Source: a virus
Reading direction: 5' to 3' (one strand)
DNA: 64,000 nucleotides
Virus record (IMG/VR): IMGVR_UViG_3300025138_000014
Span: 62,001 to 126,000 of that record
In this document: piece by piece, positions 14,393 through 62,488 of the stretch
Layout of the letters: each line of letters begins with the position of its first letter
How positions within the stretch are numbered: position 1 is the first letter of the stretch
Notes under the pieces: model-generated
The model's database searches: none
Told to the model about the DNA's origin: nothing
What the model saw: only the letters and a program-made list of their open reading frames with translations
Program-made: the position numbers and the translations under genes

Positions 14393-14836
14393 ATGACACT
14401 AGAACAGTTATTGGAAATGTGGAAAACTGACTCCGAGATTGATCGGTATAAGTTAGATGAAACTTCACTAAACACTCCCAAGTTACATTCTAAATATTTA
14501 GAAATTCTGAGTATCGCTAAACTTCAGAAGAAGAAAGCTGAGCACTCACAGAAAAAATTGCTAAAGAAAAAATGGCTTTACTATAACGGGAAGCTAACTA
14601 AAGATGATATAGAAGAATTGGGTTGGGAATATGATCCATTTCAAGGACTTAAAGTTCTAAAAGGTGAAATGGAATACTACTATAATTCAGATATAGATAT
14701 TCAGAAGTCAGAAGAAAAATGCGAGTATCATAAAGTTTTTGTTGAAACAGCAACTGAAATAGTAACAAATTTAAATTGGAGACACCAGACAGTTGGTAAT
14801 ATTATTAAATGGAGGCAGTTCGAAGCGGGCGGCTAA
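14393..14836 (+). CDS. uvsY: UvsY-like recombination mediator
   Basis: This 147-residue, Lys-rich helical protein matches T4 UvsY in length (137), in the middle region (K-K-K-W-L-Y-Y-N-G-K) and in the ending (W-R-Q-F-E-A-G-G, compared with R-A-F-E-A-G-K in T4). UvsY loads UvsX recombinase on single-stranded DNA coated by gp32. uvsW follows at once, as in T4. Confidence 0.88.
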   Translation: MTLEQLLEMWKTDSEIDRYKLDETSLNTPKLHSKYLEILSIAKLQKKKAEHSQKKLLKKKWLYYNGKLTKDDIEELGWEYDPFQGLKVLKGEMEYYYNSDIDIQKSEEKCEYHKVFVETATEIVTNLNWRHQTVGNIIKWRQFEAGG

Positions 14837-14841
14837 ACCAA

Positions 14842-16353
14842 GTGGATAAAATTGTAATACAAAAACGTAATCAGTCAGTAATGAATGTTATATCAGATTA
14901 TGGAGTTATGAATGAGTTATCCGATCATTTCTCATTTTTCGTGCCAGGTTATAAATTCATGCCAGCTTTCCGAAATAAAGTTTGGGATGGTAAGATTAGA
15001 TTGTTTAATGCTCAGTCAGGCGAGTTGCCTGTAGGGCTATACCCATACGTTCAAGAGTTTGCTAAGCCTCGGGGCTATCATGTTGAAGTTGAGCATGATG
15101 CTATGTATGGTCGACCAGATTCAACCAATGATGTAGATCCTAAAGAATTGAATGCATTCATTGAGTCACTTAATCTCAGATCAAGAGGGACTAGAATTGG
15201 ACCAAGAGATTATCAGGTTGAAGCAATCGCAGAGGGCATTCACAGAAAAAGAGCAATTCTATTAAGCCCGACTGGTTCTGGTAAATCACTTATCATCTAT
15301 GTACTTCTCAGATGGTTGCTAGAAAAGACAAATAAAAAATTATTAATTATTGTACCAACTACAAGTTTGGTTCAGCAGATGTATACAGATTTTGAAGATT
15401 ACTCAAGCGCTGACGAAGACTGGTTTGTAGAAGATGAGTGCCACAGGATTTACTCTGGTAGACCTAAAAAGATGGATGAGCGGGTAGTTATCTCAACTTG
15501 GCAATCTGTCTATAAGTTACCAGGGGTTTGGTTTGAACAATTCTGTGGTGTATTTGGTGACGAGTGCCATGGATTTAAATCTAAGTCACTTACATCAATT
15601 ATGAATAAATCTAGGGAAGCTGAATATAGATTTGGTACGACTGGTACATTAGACGGGACTCAAACTCATAAGCTAGTATTAGAAGGTCACTTTGGTAAAA
15701 TTTATAATGTAACAACTACTCGGAAACTCCAAGACAAAGGAACACTAGCAGCACTCGATATTAAAATTCTTTTGCTAAAATATCCAGAAGAAATTTGTCG
15801 TGCTTTAAAGGGAGCAGAATATCAAGCTGAGATTGATTTCATTGTAAAGAATGAAGCACGAAACAAACTCATTACTAATTTAACAGTTGACCAAGATGGT
15901 AACACATTGGTGCTATATCAATTTGTAGAAAAGCACGGCAAACCACTCTATGATATGATCAAAGCAAAAGCGCACGAGAAAAGAAAAGTGTTCTTTGTAT
16001 CTGGTTCAGTAGAAGCATCAGATAGGGAGCAAATCAGAAAGATTGTAGAGAAACAAAAAAATGCTATTATCGTTGCCAGCCTAGGTACATTTTCTACTGG
16101 TATAAATATAAGAAATCTACACAATATAGTTTTTGCTTCCCCATCTAAATCTCAAATAAAAATACTTCAGTCAATAGGTAGAGGTTTAAGAAAGTCAGAC
16201 AATGATGTAACGACTAAACTATTTGATGTGGCAGACGATCTACATTGGAAAAGCAAGAAGAATTATACGCTAGTACATTCCGCCGAACGAATTAAGATAT
16301 ATGCTAAAGAAAACTTTAAATATAAAATTTATGAGATAGAGTTAAAAATATGA
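14842..16353 (+). CDS. uvsW: UvsW-like DNA/RNA helicase
   Basis: This superfamily 2 helicase of about 503 residues unwinds branched DNA and R-loops and helps switch replication from origins to recombination. It has an N-terminal substrate-binding domain (V-P-G-Y-K-F-M-P-A-F-R-N-K-V-W-D-G-K-I-R), Walker A S-P-T-G-S-G-K-S, a D-E-C-H box in F-G-D-E-C-H-G-F and motif VI Q-S-I-G-R-G-L-R. GTG 14842 gives a start that fits the family; ATG 14809 is in frame but would overlap uvsY by 28 bases. A second D-E-C-H (V-E-D-E-C-H-R-I) lies upstream of motif II. Confidence 0.93.
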   Translation: MDKIVIQKRNQSVMNVISDYGVMNELSDHFSFFVPGYKFMPAFRNKVWDGKIRLFNAQSGELPVGLYPYVQEFAKPRGYHVEVEHDAMYGRPDSTNDVDPKELNAFIESLNLRSRGTRIGPRDYQVEAIAEGIHRKRAILLSPTGSGKSLIIYVLLRWLLEKTNKKLLIIVPTTSLVQQMYTDFEDYSSADEDWFVEDECHRIYSGRPKKMDERVVISTWQSVYKLPGVWFEQFCGVFGDECHGFKSKSLTSIMNKSREAEYRFGTTGTLDGTQTHKLVLEGHFGKIYNVTTTRKLQDKGTLAALDIKILLLKYPEEICRALKGAEYQAEIDFIVKNEARNKLITNLTVDQDGNTLVLYQFVEKHGKPLYDMIKAKAHEKRKVFFVSGSVEASDREQIRKIVEKQKNAIIVASLGTFSTGINIRNLHNIVFASPSKSQIKILQSIGRGLRKSDNDVTTKLFDVADDLHWKSKKNYTLVHSAERIKIYAKENFKYKIYEIELKI

Positions 16354-16733
16354 GTGAAATTAAACAGTTTAGATTAACAGACGGATCCGAGATCATATGC
16401 GAAGTTCTCGAATGGAATGATGACGCCACTGACCAAATAGTAATTAGAAATGCTTTAGAGATTATTTGGATGCAAAGAGGAGATAACAGGATGTGTACTT
16501 ATCGTCCATGGTTATTTCAACAGATTAGAGAAAATAGCATTTCTTGTATTACCTCTGGTCACATTATGGCCGAGAGTACACCAACAGATGAAGCTGTAGA
16601 TCAGTGGAAAGAAACCATTGACTACTTTCAAGAAAAGCCAGAGGATGAATCTACAAGTAGTTTAATGGATTCCGATACAATACCAGATGAAAACAATCTA
16701 ATATATTTGAAGCCTAAACCGGGGATTCACTGA
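16350..16733 (+). CDS. Sm-like-fold candidate protein of unknown function
   Basis: This 127-residue protein overlaps uvsW by 4 bases (ATGA). Its first ~70 residues (Q-F-R-L-T-D-G-S-E-I-I-C-E-V-L-E-W, later I-V-I-R-N-A-L-E-I-I) have the strand pattern of Sm/Hfq-like small barrels. The C-terminal third is acidic and probably disordered. Similar proteins occur in marine T4-like phages beside uvsW; function is not known to me. Confidence 0.7.
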   Translation: MSEIKQFRLTDGSEIICEVLEWNDDATDQIVIRNALEIIWMQRGDNRMCTYRPWLFQQIRENSISCITSGHIMAESTPTDEAVDQWKETIDYFQEKPEDESTSSLMDSDTIPDENNLIYLKPKPGIH

Positions 16734-16773
16734 TTTGGACATACTATCTCTCCATCCCCAAAATGCTTAATTT

Positions 16774-16802
16774 ATTATACTAACATTTCTCTGTCCTGTA
16801 AA
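16774..16802 (-). promoter_or_regulatory. Minus-strand sigma-70-like promoter in the uvsW-gp55 gap
   Basis: On the minus strand, TTTACA (complement of 16797-16802), a 17-base spacer and TATAAT (complement of 16774-16779) are both intact. The expected transcript starts near 16767 and runs left, antisense to the gene ending at 16733. No substantial minus-strand ORF follows, so an antisense or regulatory RNA is the likeliest product. Confidence 0.5.
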
Positions 16803-16835
16803 CACCTAATATCGCCAAAACAGAAAATAATTTAC

Positions 16836-16864
16836 TTTACTTTCCCAGCCAAATGATTTATAAT
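16836..16864 (+). promoter_or_regulatory. Early sigma-70-like promoter for gp55
   Basis: TTTACT (16836-16841), 17 bases and TATAAT (16859-16864) lie about 21 bases before the gp55 ATG. It diverges from the minus-strand promoter 34 bases away. Confidence 0.7.
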
Positions 16865-16884
16865 TAACCAATAAGGAGTGAATA

Positions 16885-17478
16885 ATGGCTAAAACTAAAA
16901 AGCGTAGTATTCACTATGTAAACAACAAAGACTTCTCATATGCTGTAGTTGACTATTGTACAGAACTAAAACAAGCAAAAGAAAATGAGTCTGCACTACC
17001 CATTGTTCCAGATTACATAGCTGAATGTTTCTTAAAAATTTCTGAAGGTCTTTCTCATAAGTCCAATTTTATCAGATACACATATCGTGAAGAAATGGTT
17101 ATGGATGCAGTTGAAAACTGTCTCAAAGCCATTGAGAATTATAATATCGAAGCTGCTACACGTACGGGTAAACCAAATGCTTTTGCATACTTTACTCAAA
17201 TTAGTTGGTATGCATTCCTCAGGAGAATTGCTAAAGAAAAACGGCAACAAGAAATTAAATTTAAATATATGGTTTCCTCTGGTATTGATGCTTTCTTGGA
17301 TACAAAAAATGGAGATGTTATATCAAATAGTGTCGCAACAAACTTTATTGATGGTCTTAAAGACAGAATTGAAAAGATTAAAGAAAAAGATGTTGTTGTA
17401 AAAGAACTTGTAAAAGCAGAGAAAAAGAAAAGAAGAACCAAGTCAGCAGACTCGGATTTGACAGATTTTATAAAATGA
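16885..17478 (+). CDS. 55: gp55-like late sigma factor
   Basis: This 197-residue sigma factor directs host RNA polymerase to TATAAATA late promoters, with gp33 and the gp45 clamp as partners. The region-2-like core is clear (E-E-M-V-M-D-A-V-E-N-C-L-K-A-I-E-N-Y, then A-F-A-Y-F-T-Q-I-S-W-Y-A-F-L-R-R-I). The C-terminus is Lys/Arg-rich. It has its own early promoter and an AAGGAG ribosome-binding site. Nine intergenic TATAAATA boxes in the window are its likely targets. Confidence 0.93.
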   Translation: MAKTKKRSIHYVNNKDFSYAVVDYCTELKQAKENESALPIVPDYIAECFLKISEGLSHKSNFIRYTYREEMVMDAVENCLKAIENYNIEAATRTGKPNAFAYFTQISWYAFLRRIAKEKRQQEIKFKYMVSSGIDAFLDTKNGDVISNSVATNFIDGLKDRIEKIKEKDVVVKELVKAEKKKRRTKSADSDLTDFIK

Positions 17479-61887: not shown

Positions 61888-62488
61888 AACATATACCGAT
61901 CCAGATGGTAACAAATATCCGAGTATTACTACAGTCCTTGGTATTCTTTCACGTGACTCCATCGCAGCATGGAAAAAACGTGTTGGAGAAGAGGAAGCAA
62001 ATAAGATTTCTTATAAAGCATCTAGTCGTGGTACCGCTGTTCACGACATTGTAGAGAAATATTTGAACAACGAGGATACAGGTAAAACCATGCCGCATAT
62101 CCAAGCCAGCTTATCTAATTTAAAACCCATTTTAAATAGAATTGATGTTATATATGGTCAAGAAGTACCGCTATATTCTAAGCATCTTGGAGTTGCTGGT
62201 AGAGTTGACTGTGTCGGTAAATTTGATGGTGTTCCATCCATAATTGATTTTAAAACATCCAAAAGAGTAAAGAAGCGAGAATGGTGTAAAGGTTACTTTA
62301 TGCAAGAAGCAGCTTATGCTATCATGTGGGAAGAAAGAACTGGAATGCCTATTCCAAATCTGGTTACCATAATGGATGTAGATAATGAGGATCCATTAGT
62401 CTTTATAGAGCATAGAGATCAGTGGGTACCAAAGTTATTTGAAACAATTGAATTATATCGTGAAGATATGAGAAAAAGACCACTTTAG
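61817..62488 (+). CDS. PD-(D/E)XK exonuclease (RecB/Cas4-like)
   Basis: This 223-residue nuclease has R-G-T-A-V-H-D (about 71-77, catalytic His), G-R-V-D-C-V (Asp near 125), I-I-D-F-K-T-S-K (Asp-x-Lys near 137-139) and a Q-E-A-A-Y motif near 154. These are the RecB-family exonuclease motifs. It is a common T4-like gene near phoH and probably processes DNA ends or degrades host DNA. ATG 61817 gives a family-like N-terminus. Confidence 0.85.
   Translation: MKFLHQKIPLGYLDLTAETLPKGRTYTDPDGNKYPSITTVLGILSRDSIAAWKKRVGEEEANKISYKASSRGTAVHDIVEKYLNNEDTGKTMPHIQASLSNLKPILNRIDVIYGQEVPLYSKHLGVAGRVDCVGKFDGVPSIIDFKTSKRVKKREWCKGYFMQEAAYAIMWEERTGMPIPNLVTIMDVDNEDPLVFIEHRDQWVPKLFETIELYREDMRKRPL

Follow-up and report, generated by a model that had tools for sequence, protein, structure and literature searches.

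According to the annotation of the phage T4 record, the replication origin oriF lies at 115321 with the remark "(-) strand direction; primer RNA is same as transcript for gene uvsY", that is to say, it is located downstream of uvsW and its primer RNA heads back toward uvsW. In the part of the source available (PMC3016281), the oriF RNA is described as forming R-loops that are thought to prime leading-strand synthesis, an A+T-rich unwinding element is placed downstream, UvsW is stated to be made late and to unwind the origin R-loops, and a shift in nucleotide skew is reported at oriE, oriF, and oriG and not at oriA or oriC. Direct repeats of 12 nt are given as a feature of oriE in the partial account used here. 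In a T4-like cyanophage, S-PM2, a minus-strand RNA of approximately 225 nt, CfrI, has been detected at psbA (PMC2984593, available in part). The accessible portions of the literature searched hold no mapped replication origin for the marine T4-like phages; for Syn9, a single theta origin is predicted, its place not being given in the portion available (PMC2984593).

The stretch of DNA analysed here (the window, 64,000 nt) comprises positions 62001–126000 of the 151,329-bp record of a T4-like marine phage, the best named match of which by DNA is the Kyanoviridae phage C48C1. A gap of 151 bp separates the gene of a 127-aa protein (residing at 16350–16733, plus strand) from the gene of the late sigma factor gp55 (16885–17478, plus strand; phrog_234, 9.7e-51). 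Within this gap the initial annotation had placed a minus-strand promoter as good as any plus-strand promoter in the region, and TTTACA-N17-TATAAT was indeed present at 16802–16774, with a −35 element at 16797–16802 and a −10 element at 16774–16779 (both minus strand; motif scan and conservation). It has 11 of 12 consensus bases and a spacer of 17 nt and ties with two plus-strand sites as the best of 64 promoter-like sites in the 8–27 kb interval of the window. From the usual promoter spacing, transcription would be expected to start near 16767 on the minus strand. A scan of the whole record for exact TTKACA-N16–18-TATAAT revealed 14 forward occurrences and 1 reverse occurrence, the latter being the antisense promoter. 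Sites scoring at least 9/12 were not enriched in the 8–27 kb interval (64 vs. 69.9 in shuffles), and thus the window alone could not settle whether the promoter is real; its conservation does (described below). A second promoter, TTTACT-N17-TATAAT (16836–16864, plus strand; motif scan), precedes gp55 and faces the opposite way; therefore, the two promoters are divergent. This second promoter and the two start-region features described below, a dyad and a purine stretch, had gone unmentioned in the initial annotation. On the minus strand just before gp55 (16857–16866), the sequence TTATAAATC resembles the T4 late promoter box (TATAAATA). At the gathering threshold, Rfam gave 0 matches in the 64-kb window.

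Conservation was assessed with five gp55 searches of IMG/VR, each contributing the best 80 of a larger number of matches; together with the window and named phages, these gave 413 loci. Removal of 9 loci with no upstream ORF, 55 with a gap outside 70–420 bp, and near-duplicates left 240 nonredundant gaps from named Kyanoviridae, Sinorhizobium phage phiM19, and IMG/VR contigs. Among the matches listed, and with the search extended to the nearest ORF, the minus promoter scored at least 10/12 in 223 of the 240 gaps and at least 11/12 in 69.6%; the gp55 plus promoter reached these scores in 89.2% (214/240) and 67.1%, respectively, again among the matches listed. Dinucleotide shuffles of the 240 gaps reached them in 5.3% and 0.5%. 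With the search extended back to the Sm-like gene (described below), the minus promoter scored at least 10/12 in 225 of 237 loci among the matches listed, and the other 12 scored 9 (11 loci) or 8 (1 locus). The named carriers at 10–12/12 are Syn9, P-SSM2, S-SKS1, S-RIM44, ACG-2014b, P-RSM3, ACG-2014f, HTVC008M, Mosig, C48C1, and phiM19; Melnitz-2 scores just 8/12. Of the 503 gaps between plus-strand genes of 13 genomes, 34 have a minus promoter that scores 10/12 or better. The 11/12 level is reached in 14 of the gaps, and 11 of these are the gp55-gap site, which falls below 11/12 in Melnitz-2 and P-RSM3.

Of the 64 loci set aside by the first two filters, 3 were too short for a scan of the 200 nt before gp55, and 32 of the remaining 61 scored at least 10/12 there. 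Searched back to the Sm-like stop codon, 47 of 51 loci (not de-duplicated) reached this score; the 4 that fell short have a called gp55 start 14–49 nt from that stop, too close to hold the unit. The 13 set-aside loci with no Sm-like gene in view scored at least 10 in 9 cases and 7–9 in 4. The −35 and −10 hexamers at a spacing of 16–18 nt, conserved in this way, are those of a sigma-70-type promoter. The conservation in relatives, which the initial annotation had proposed to check, strongly supports a real minus-strand promoter that most likely yields a non-coding RNA, and by its distribution the antisense feature is far older than one genome. We designate the promoter together with its start region the antisense unit. 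Two further promoters were observed outside the gp55 gap: P-SSM2 has a second strong minus promoter (TTGAGA-17-TATAAT) in a gap between plus-strand genes at 143942–144116 of its record, and a near-identical TTGACAGGTTTGAAAAAC promoter, like the antisense one of phiM19, recurs at 158984 of the phiM19 genome.

The gene at 16350–16733 encodes an Sm-like (LSm/Hfq-fold) protein of the phrog_527/471 family, as identified by profile searches. Of 240 loci among the matches listed, 237 have such a gene upstream of gp55 (it was not found there in the other 3), and in 220 it stands directly before the gap. Searched singly, the window protein matched neither PF16243 nor DUF6561, whereas single-sequence searches of 32 members matched PF16243 in 16 and DUF6561 in 10. 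Syn9 gp143 matches PF16243 at 9.9e-43, comparison of the window-group and cyanophage-group profiles gave 95.5%, and the profile built from all 32 members, the window protein among them, hits PDB 3by7 at 1.2e-15. By profile, the gene thus belongs to the Sm-like family PF16243. It lies between uvsW (helicase; 14809–16353, plus strand) and gp55; PHROGs and several GenBank records give it the label "methylamine utilization". In 12 loci among the matches listed, an insert of approximately 650 nt parts the Sm-like gene from the unit, which stays beside gp55 and scores 9–12. In loci L243, L310, and L312 the arrangement is reversed: the unit keeps its distance of 42 nt from the Sm-like stop codon and is separated from gp55 by other genes. 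Set-aside loci with 359–1230 nt between the Sm-like gene and gp55 also hold the unit. Judged from these arrangements, the antisense unit depends on neither neighbour, because it is kept despite inserts on either side. As seen in loci L009, L025, L058, and L006, two differing genes seem to have entered the space between the unit and the Sm-like gene in different lineages.

The start region of the unit has two features. One is a short inverted repeat with its centre at the expected +1 (16761–16773, minus strand), which in the window reads AAAT-TAAGC-ATTT and is weak, with four A/T pairs, and the arms of which covary across relatives. In CATAGA-TGCT-TCTATG, AAGGC-ATCA-GCCTT, GGACTA-TG-TAGTCC, and CGACTA-TG-TAGTCG, for example, the sequences differ and the arms match. 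Of 223 loci among the matches listed, 58 have a perfect stem of at least 5 pairs after the minus −10 box; a swap null, in which the second half of the dyad was exchanged between loci with the column make-up kept, gave a mean of 8.2 and a maximum of 16 in 300 trials. The plus promoters, which served as a control, had no excess (6/214 vs. 7.5 expected, among the matches listed). The dyad centre lies mostly 6–7.5 nt past the −10 box, where transcription should start. The pairing excess is small at centres 5.5–8, being greatest at 6 (0.36 vs. 0.28) and 7 (0.42 vs. 0.34), and at other centres up to 29.5 pairing is within 0.045 of the null. The commonest loops are GTA, TGT, TG, and GTC. The dyad is not universal: among the matches listed, 69 of 236 loci (about 30%) have at most 3 of 5 pairs. 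Exceptions to pairing were T.G (42 vs. 16 in the null), A.G (41 vs. 16), and A.C (3 vs. 4). Wobble pairs were considered as a pointer to the folding strand and rejected; T.G and A.G are enriched alike, and thus the exceptions do not show which strand folds. The dyad could instead be the site of a dimeric protein, although the variety of arms and loops (25 different perfect 5-bp arms, with a loop search range of 2–5 nt, among the matches listed) speaks against a single operator.

The other feature is a purine-rich, G-rich first transcribed stretch, GGGGATGGAGAGA (16747–16759, minus strand). At offsets 17–23 past the minus −10 box, 77–92% of bases are purines (223 loci among the matches listed), and base preferences fade beyond about +25 of the minus RNA. 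The first 25 nt of this RNA are G-rich with a mean GC content of 43% (223 loci among the matches listed), compared with 29–35% in later bins. The energy of the RNA–DNA hybrid relative to the duplex DNA was −0.10 per step in +1 to +25 and +0.09 to +0.11 thereafter; the corresponding values were −0.05 in the first 25 nt of the plus gp55 transcripts and −0.08 for the shuffled 25 nt. The favourable hybrid at the start therefore reflects base composition only, the shuffled stretch being nearly equal and the plus transcripts mildly favourable as well; this control slightly lowers our confidence in the origin reading set out below. A folded RNA start had been proposed from a GGGGAT/ATCCCC pair. The pair is present (16721–16726 and 16754–16759), whereas a comparable G-rich 6-nt stem occurs in just 6 of 236 relatives among the matches listed (0 in shuffles) and the RNA-fold z of +1 to +60 has a mean of −0.54 (120 loci sampled); thus, the hairpin is not conserved, and we rejected it as a conserved RNA element.

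A plus-strand copy of the promoter and start region was found in the same record outside the window, at record positions 147137–147460 (L451:7137–7460). The copied start region reads AAAC-TAAG-GTTT followed by GGAGGGGAGAG and stands in front of an 88-aa ORF, which had no PHROG or Pfam match and, among the matches listed, has one close relative in IMG/VR, also with the start region. When contigs were scanned with the pattern of this copied region, 8 matched. Seven of them carry it as the antisense unit, 6 beside gp55 on the opposite strand and 1 cut where gp55 would lie; in the eighth, the pattern precedes the 88-aa ORF. Apparently, the unit can undergo duplication and serve as the leader of a gene.

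Comparison of the antisense unit with T4 oriF revealed the geometry of a T4-type R-loop origin, an opposite-strand promoter downstream of uvsW aimed back at it, here with the Sm-like gene in between. The unit lies on the same side of uvsW as oriF, points in the same direction, and shares the neighbourhood of recombination genes. The two differ in that (i) the marine phages have uvsY on the opposite side of uvsW; (ii) the T4 promoter is a MotA middle promoter and its RNA is the uvsY transcript, whereas the unit has a plain sigma-70-type promoter and no shared gene; (iii) the unit is G-rich in its first 25 nt where T4 has the A+T-rich unwinding element downstream; and (iv) the T4 oriF start region, inspected by eye, has no such dyad or purine stretch, whereas the unit, a putative origin, has both. 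Behind the mitochondrial light-strand promoter (LSP) lies CSBII, a G-rich primer region. The order of promoter and G-rich transcribed stretch is the same in the unit, and R-loop priming from the LSP has been described (PMC6317783, available in part); the G-rich stretch of the unit is short, however, and falls within +25.

In the best-supported single reading, the antisense unit would correspond in position to T4 oriF (ori uvsY) and would act as a replication origin primed by transcription through an R-loop; we hold this reading at somewhat less than even confidence. More tentatively still, the unit may act as the main origin in phiM19 and in the marine T4-like phages (Kyanoviridae), with a new R-loop design in which a +1 dyad and a purine-rich first 20 nt take the place of T4's A+T-rich unwinding element, at the oriF position though uvsY is on the other side of uvsW. 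The observed elements are the sigma-70-type promoter opposite to the uvsW/gp55 strand, the dyad at +1, the purine-rich first approximately 20 nt, the lack of a shared gene behind the promoter, and the near-universal presence in the relatives sampled. In the mechanism that we propose, host RNA polymerase would start the minus-strand RNA early in infection, the G-rich 5′ part of which would stay hybridised to the pyrimidine-rich template, and the displaced strand would fold at the dyad, so resisting closure of the R-loop. The 3′ end of the RNA would prime leading-strand synthesis leftward, and the opened region would admit the replisome. Later, UvsW, encoded next door, would unwind the R-loop as in T4, and replication would pass to the recombination mode.

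Nucleotide skew was compared around the unit. Raw binned GC skew at 4-fold sites had a clear switch in Melnitz-2 and no clear switch in the other 6 of 7 genomes, and left/right permutation per genome, run on 7 genomes, gave p < 0.05 for two of them at 30 kb (C48C1 and Melnitz-2) and for one at 50 kb (Melnitz-2). We then removed the mean for each gene orientation from the 4-fold GC skew of 13 genomes and located the cumulative minimum, which is the usual mark of an origin. The detrended minimum has a mean scaled distance of 0.19 from the unit (KS p 0.0006); it lies at most 12 kb away in 8 of the 13 genomes and farther off in the window's own genome (+25 kb), HTVC008M (−25), S-RIM44 (+20), P-SSM2 (+55), and phiM19 (−51), the last having a skew maximum near the unit. 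In 10 of 13 genomes, skew to the right of the unit exceeds that to the left (Wilcoxon p 0.007), with the reverse in the window's own genome, HTVC008M, and phiM19; AT skew had no pattern around the unit in the 13 genomes. The skew step could reflect the border between late/structural and replication genes at the same place. Because this gene border coincides with the unit and the 13 phages are related, the skew supports the origin reading without proving it.

An antisense or small RNA acting on the gene at 16350 or on uvsW had been suggested in the initial annotation. The conserved promoter, with its probable non-coding product, supports that suggestion in part; control of these genes by pairing is not favoured. 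In its fuller form, an early transcript would repress the Sm-like/uvsW operon until late, by pairing or by collision of RNA polymerases, with the Sm-like protein possibly as RNA partner. We consider this unlikely, though its geometry is suitable: the predicted RNA would enter the Sm-like gene at its 3′ end and head for that of uvsW, and the neighbour directly before the gap in those 220 of 240 loci, among the matches listed, is an Sm-like protein. CfrI is a precedent for it (PMC2984593, in the part available). Kyanoviridae are also stated to show antisense transcription (PMC10976474, available in part, citing Stazic 2016). CfrI, however, is a detected RNA at psbA, whereas the unit lies at gp55, is conserved across the relatives sampled, and has a predicted RNA. 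Also in favour, T4 UvsW is produced late and removes origin R-loops (PMC3016281, in part). On the other hand, the unit is kept in the 12 loci, among the matches listed, where the approximately 650-nt insert replaces the adjoining target, terminator-like sites behind the minus promoter are few (18/223 vs. 11 in shuffles, among the matches listed, with none standing out), base preferences fade near +25, and pairing would need no dyad at +1. Antisense control may operate but explains less than the origin reading does.

The covarying dyad, with T.G and A.G exceptions equally enriched, also fits a dimer-binding site, and the back-to-back promoters might tune the gp55 promoter through supercoiling or polymerase competition, the dyad being the operator of a regulator with drifting specificity. 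In keeping with such control of gp55 timing, start-to-start distances cluster at 60–64 bp (52/201) and 105–109 bp (27/201) among the matches listed, and the two −35 boxes form a palindrome in Syn9, ACG-2014b, and P-RSM3. It is nevertheless improbable in our judgement, more so than antisense control: L243, L310, and L312 keep the unit beside the Sm-like gene with other genes before gp55, and 25 perfect 5-bp arms with varying loops are unlike one operator. The least probable reading, to which we give very little credence, is that the unit is the leader of a minus-strand gene, either lost or tiny. Behind the promoter, phiM19 has a minus-strand ORF of approximately 50 aa (phrog_28687; L088:1110–1262), the window reads GGAGAG-N5-ATG and 14 codons, and the start-region copy leads the 88-aa plus-strand ORF elsewhere in the same genome. 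In agreement with the initial annotation, no sizeable minus-strand ORF follows the promoter directly in the window, where this 14-codon frame stands after the SD-like GGAGAG. Across relatives, an ATG with an SD-like site at most 70 nt from the start was found in 8 of 223 loci among the matches listed (9–52 codons), with no ORF standing out, and a decayed leader would not be so widely conserved.

The literature searched, of which PMC5931967, PMC5082946, PMC2993671, and PMC2518516 formed part and most subscription papers did not, holds no description of the antisense unit in its accessible portions. Sigma-70 promoters have been predicted over whole cyanophage genomes, and the supplement of that study may list the antisense promoter (PMC3037559). 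If the unit is not an origin, it would still be an antisense promoter shared across the group, with a start region whose covariation is unusual, and undescribed in the literature searched. The named carriers infect Prochlorococcus, Synechococcus, SAR11, and methylotrophs, and such T4-like phages are very common in the ocean. The conserved unit, of about 60–100 bp, makes the origin question directly testable in cultured phages. If the origin reading is true, very abundant ocean viruses may begin the copying of their DNA at this antisense unit.
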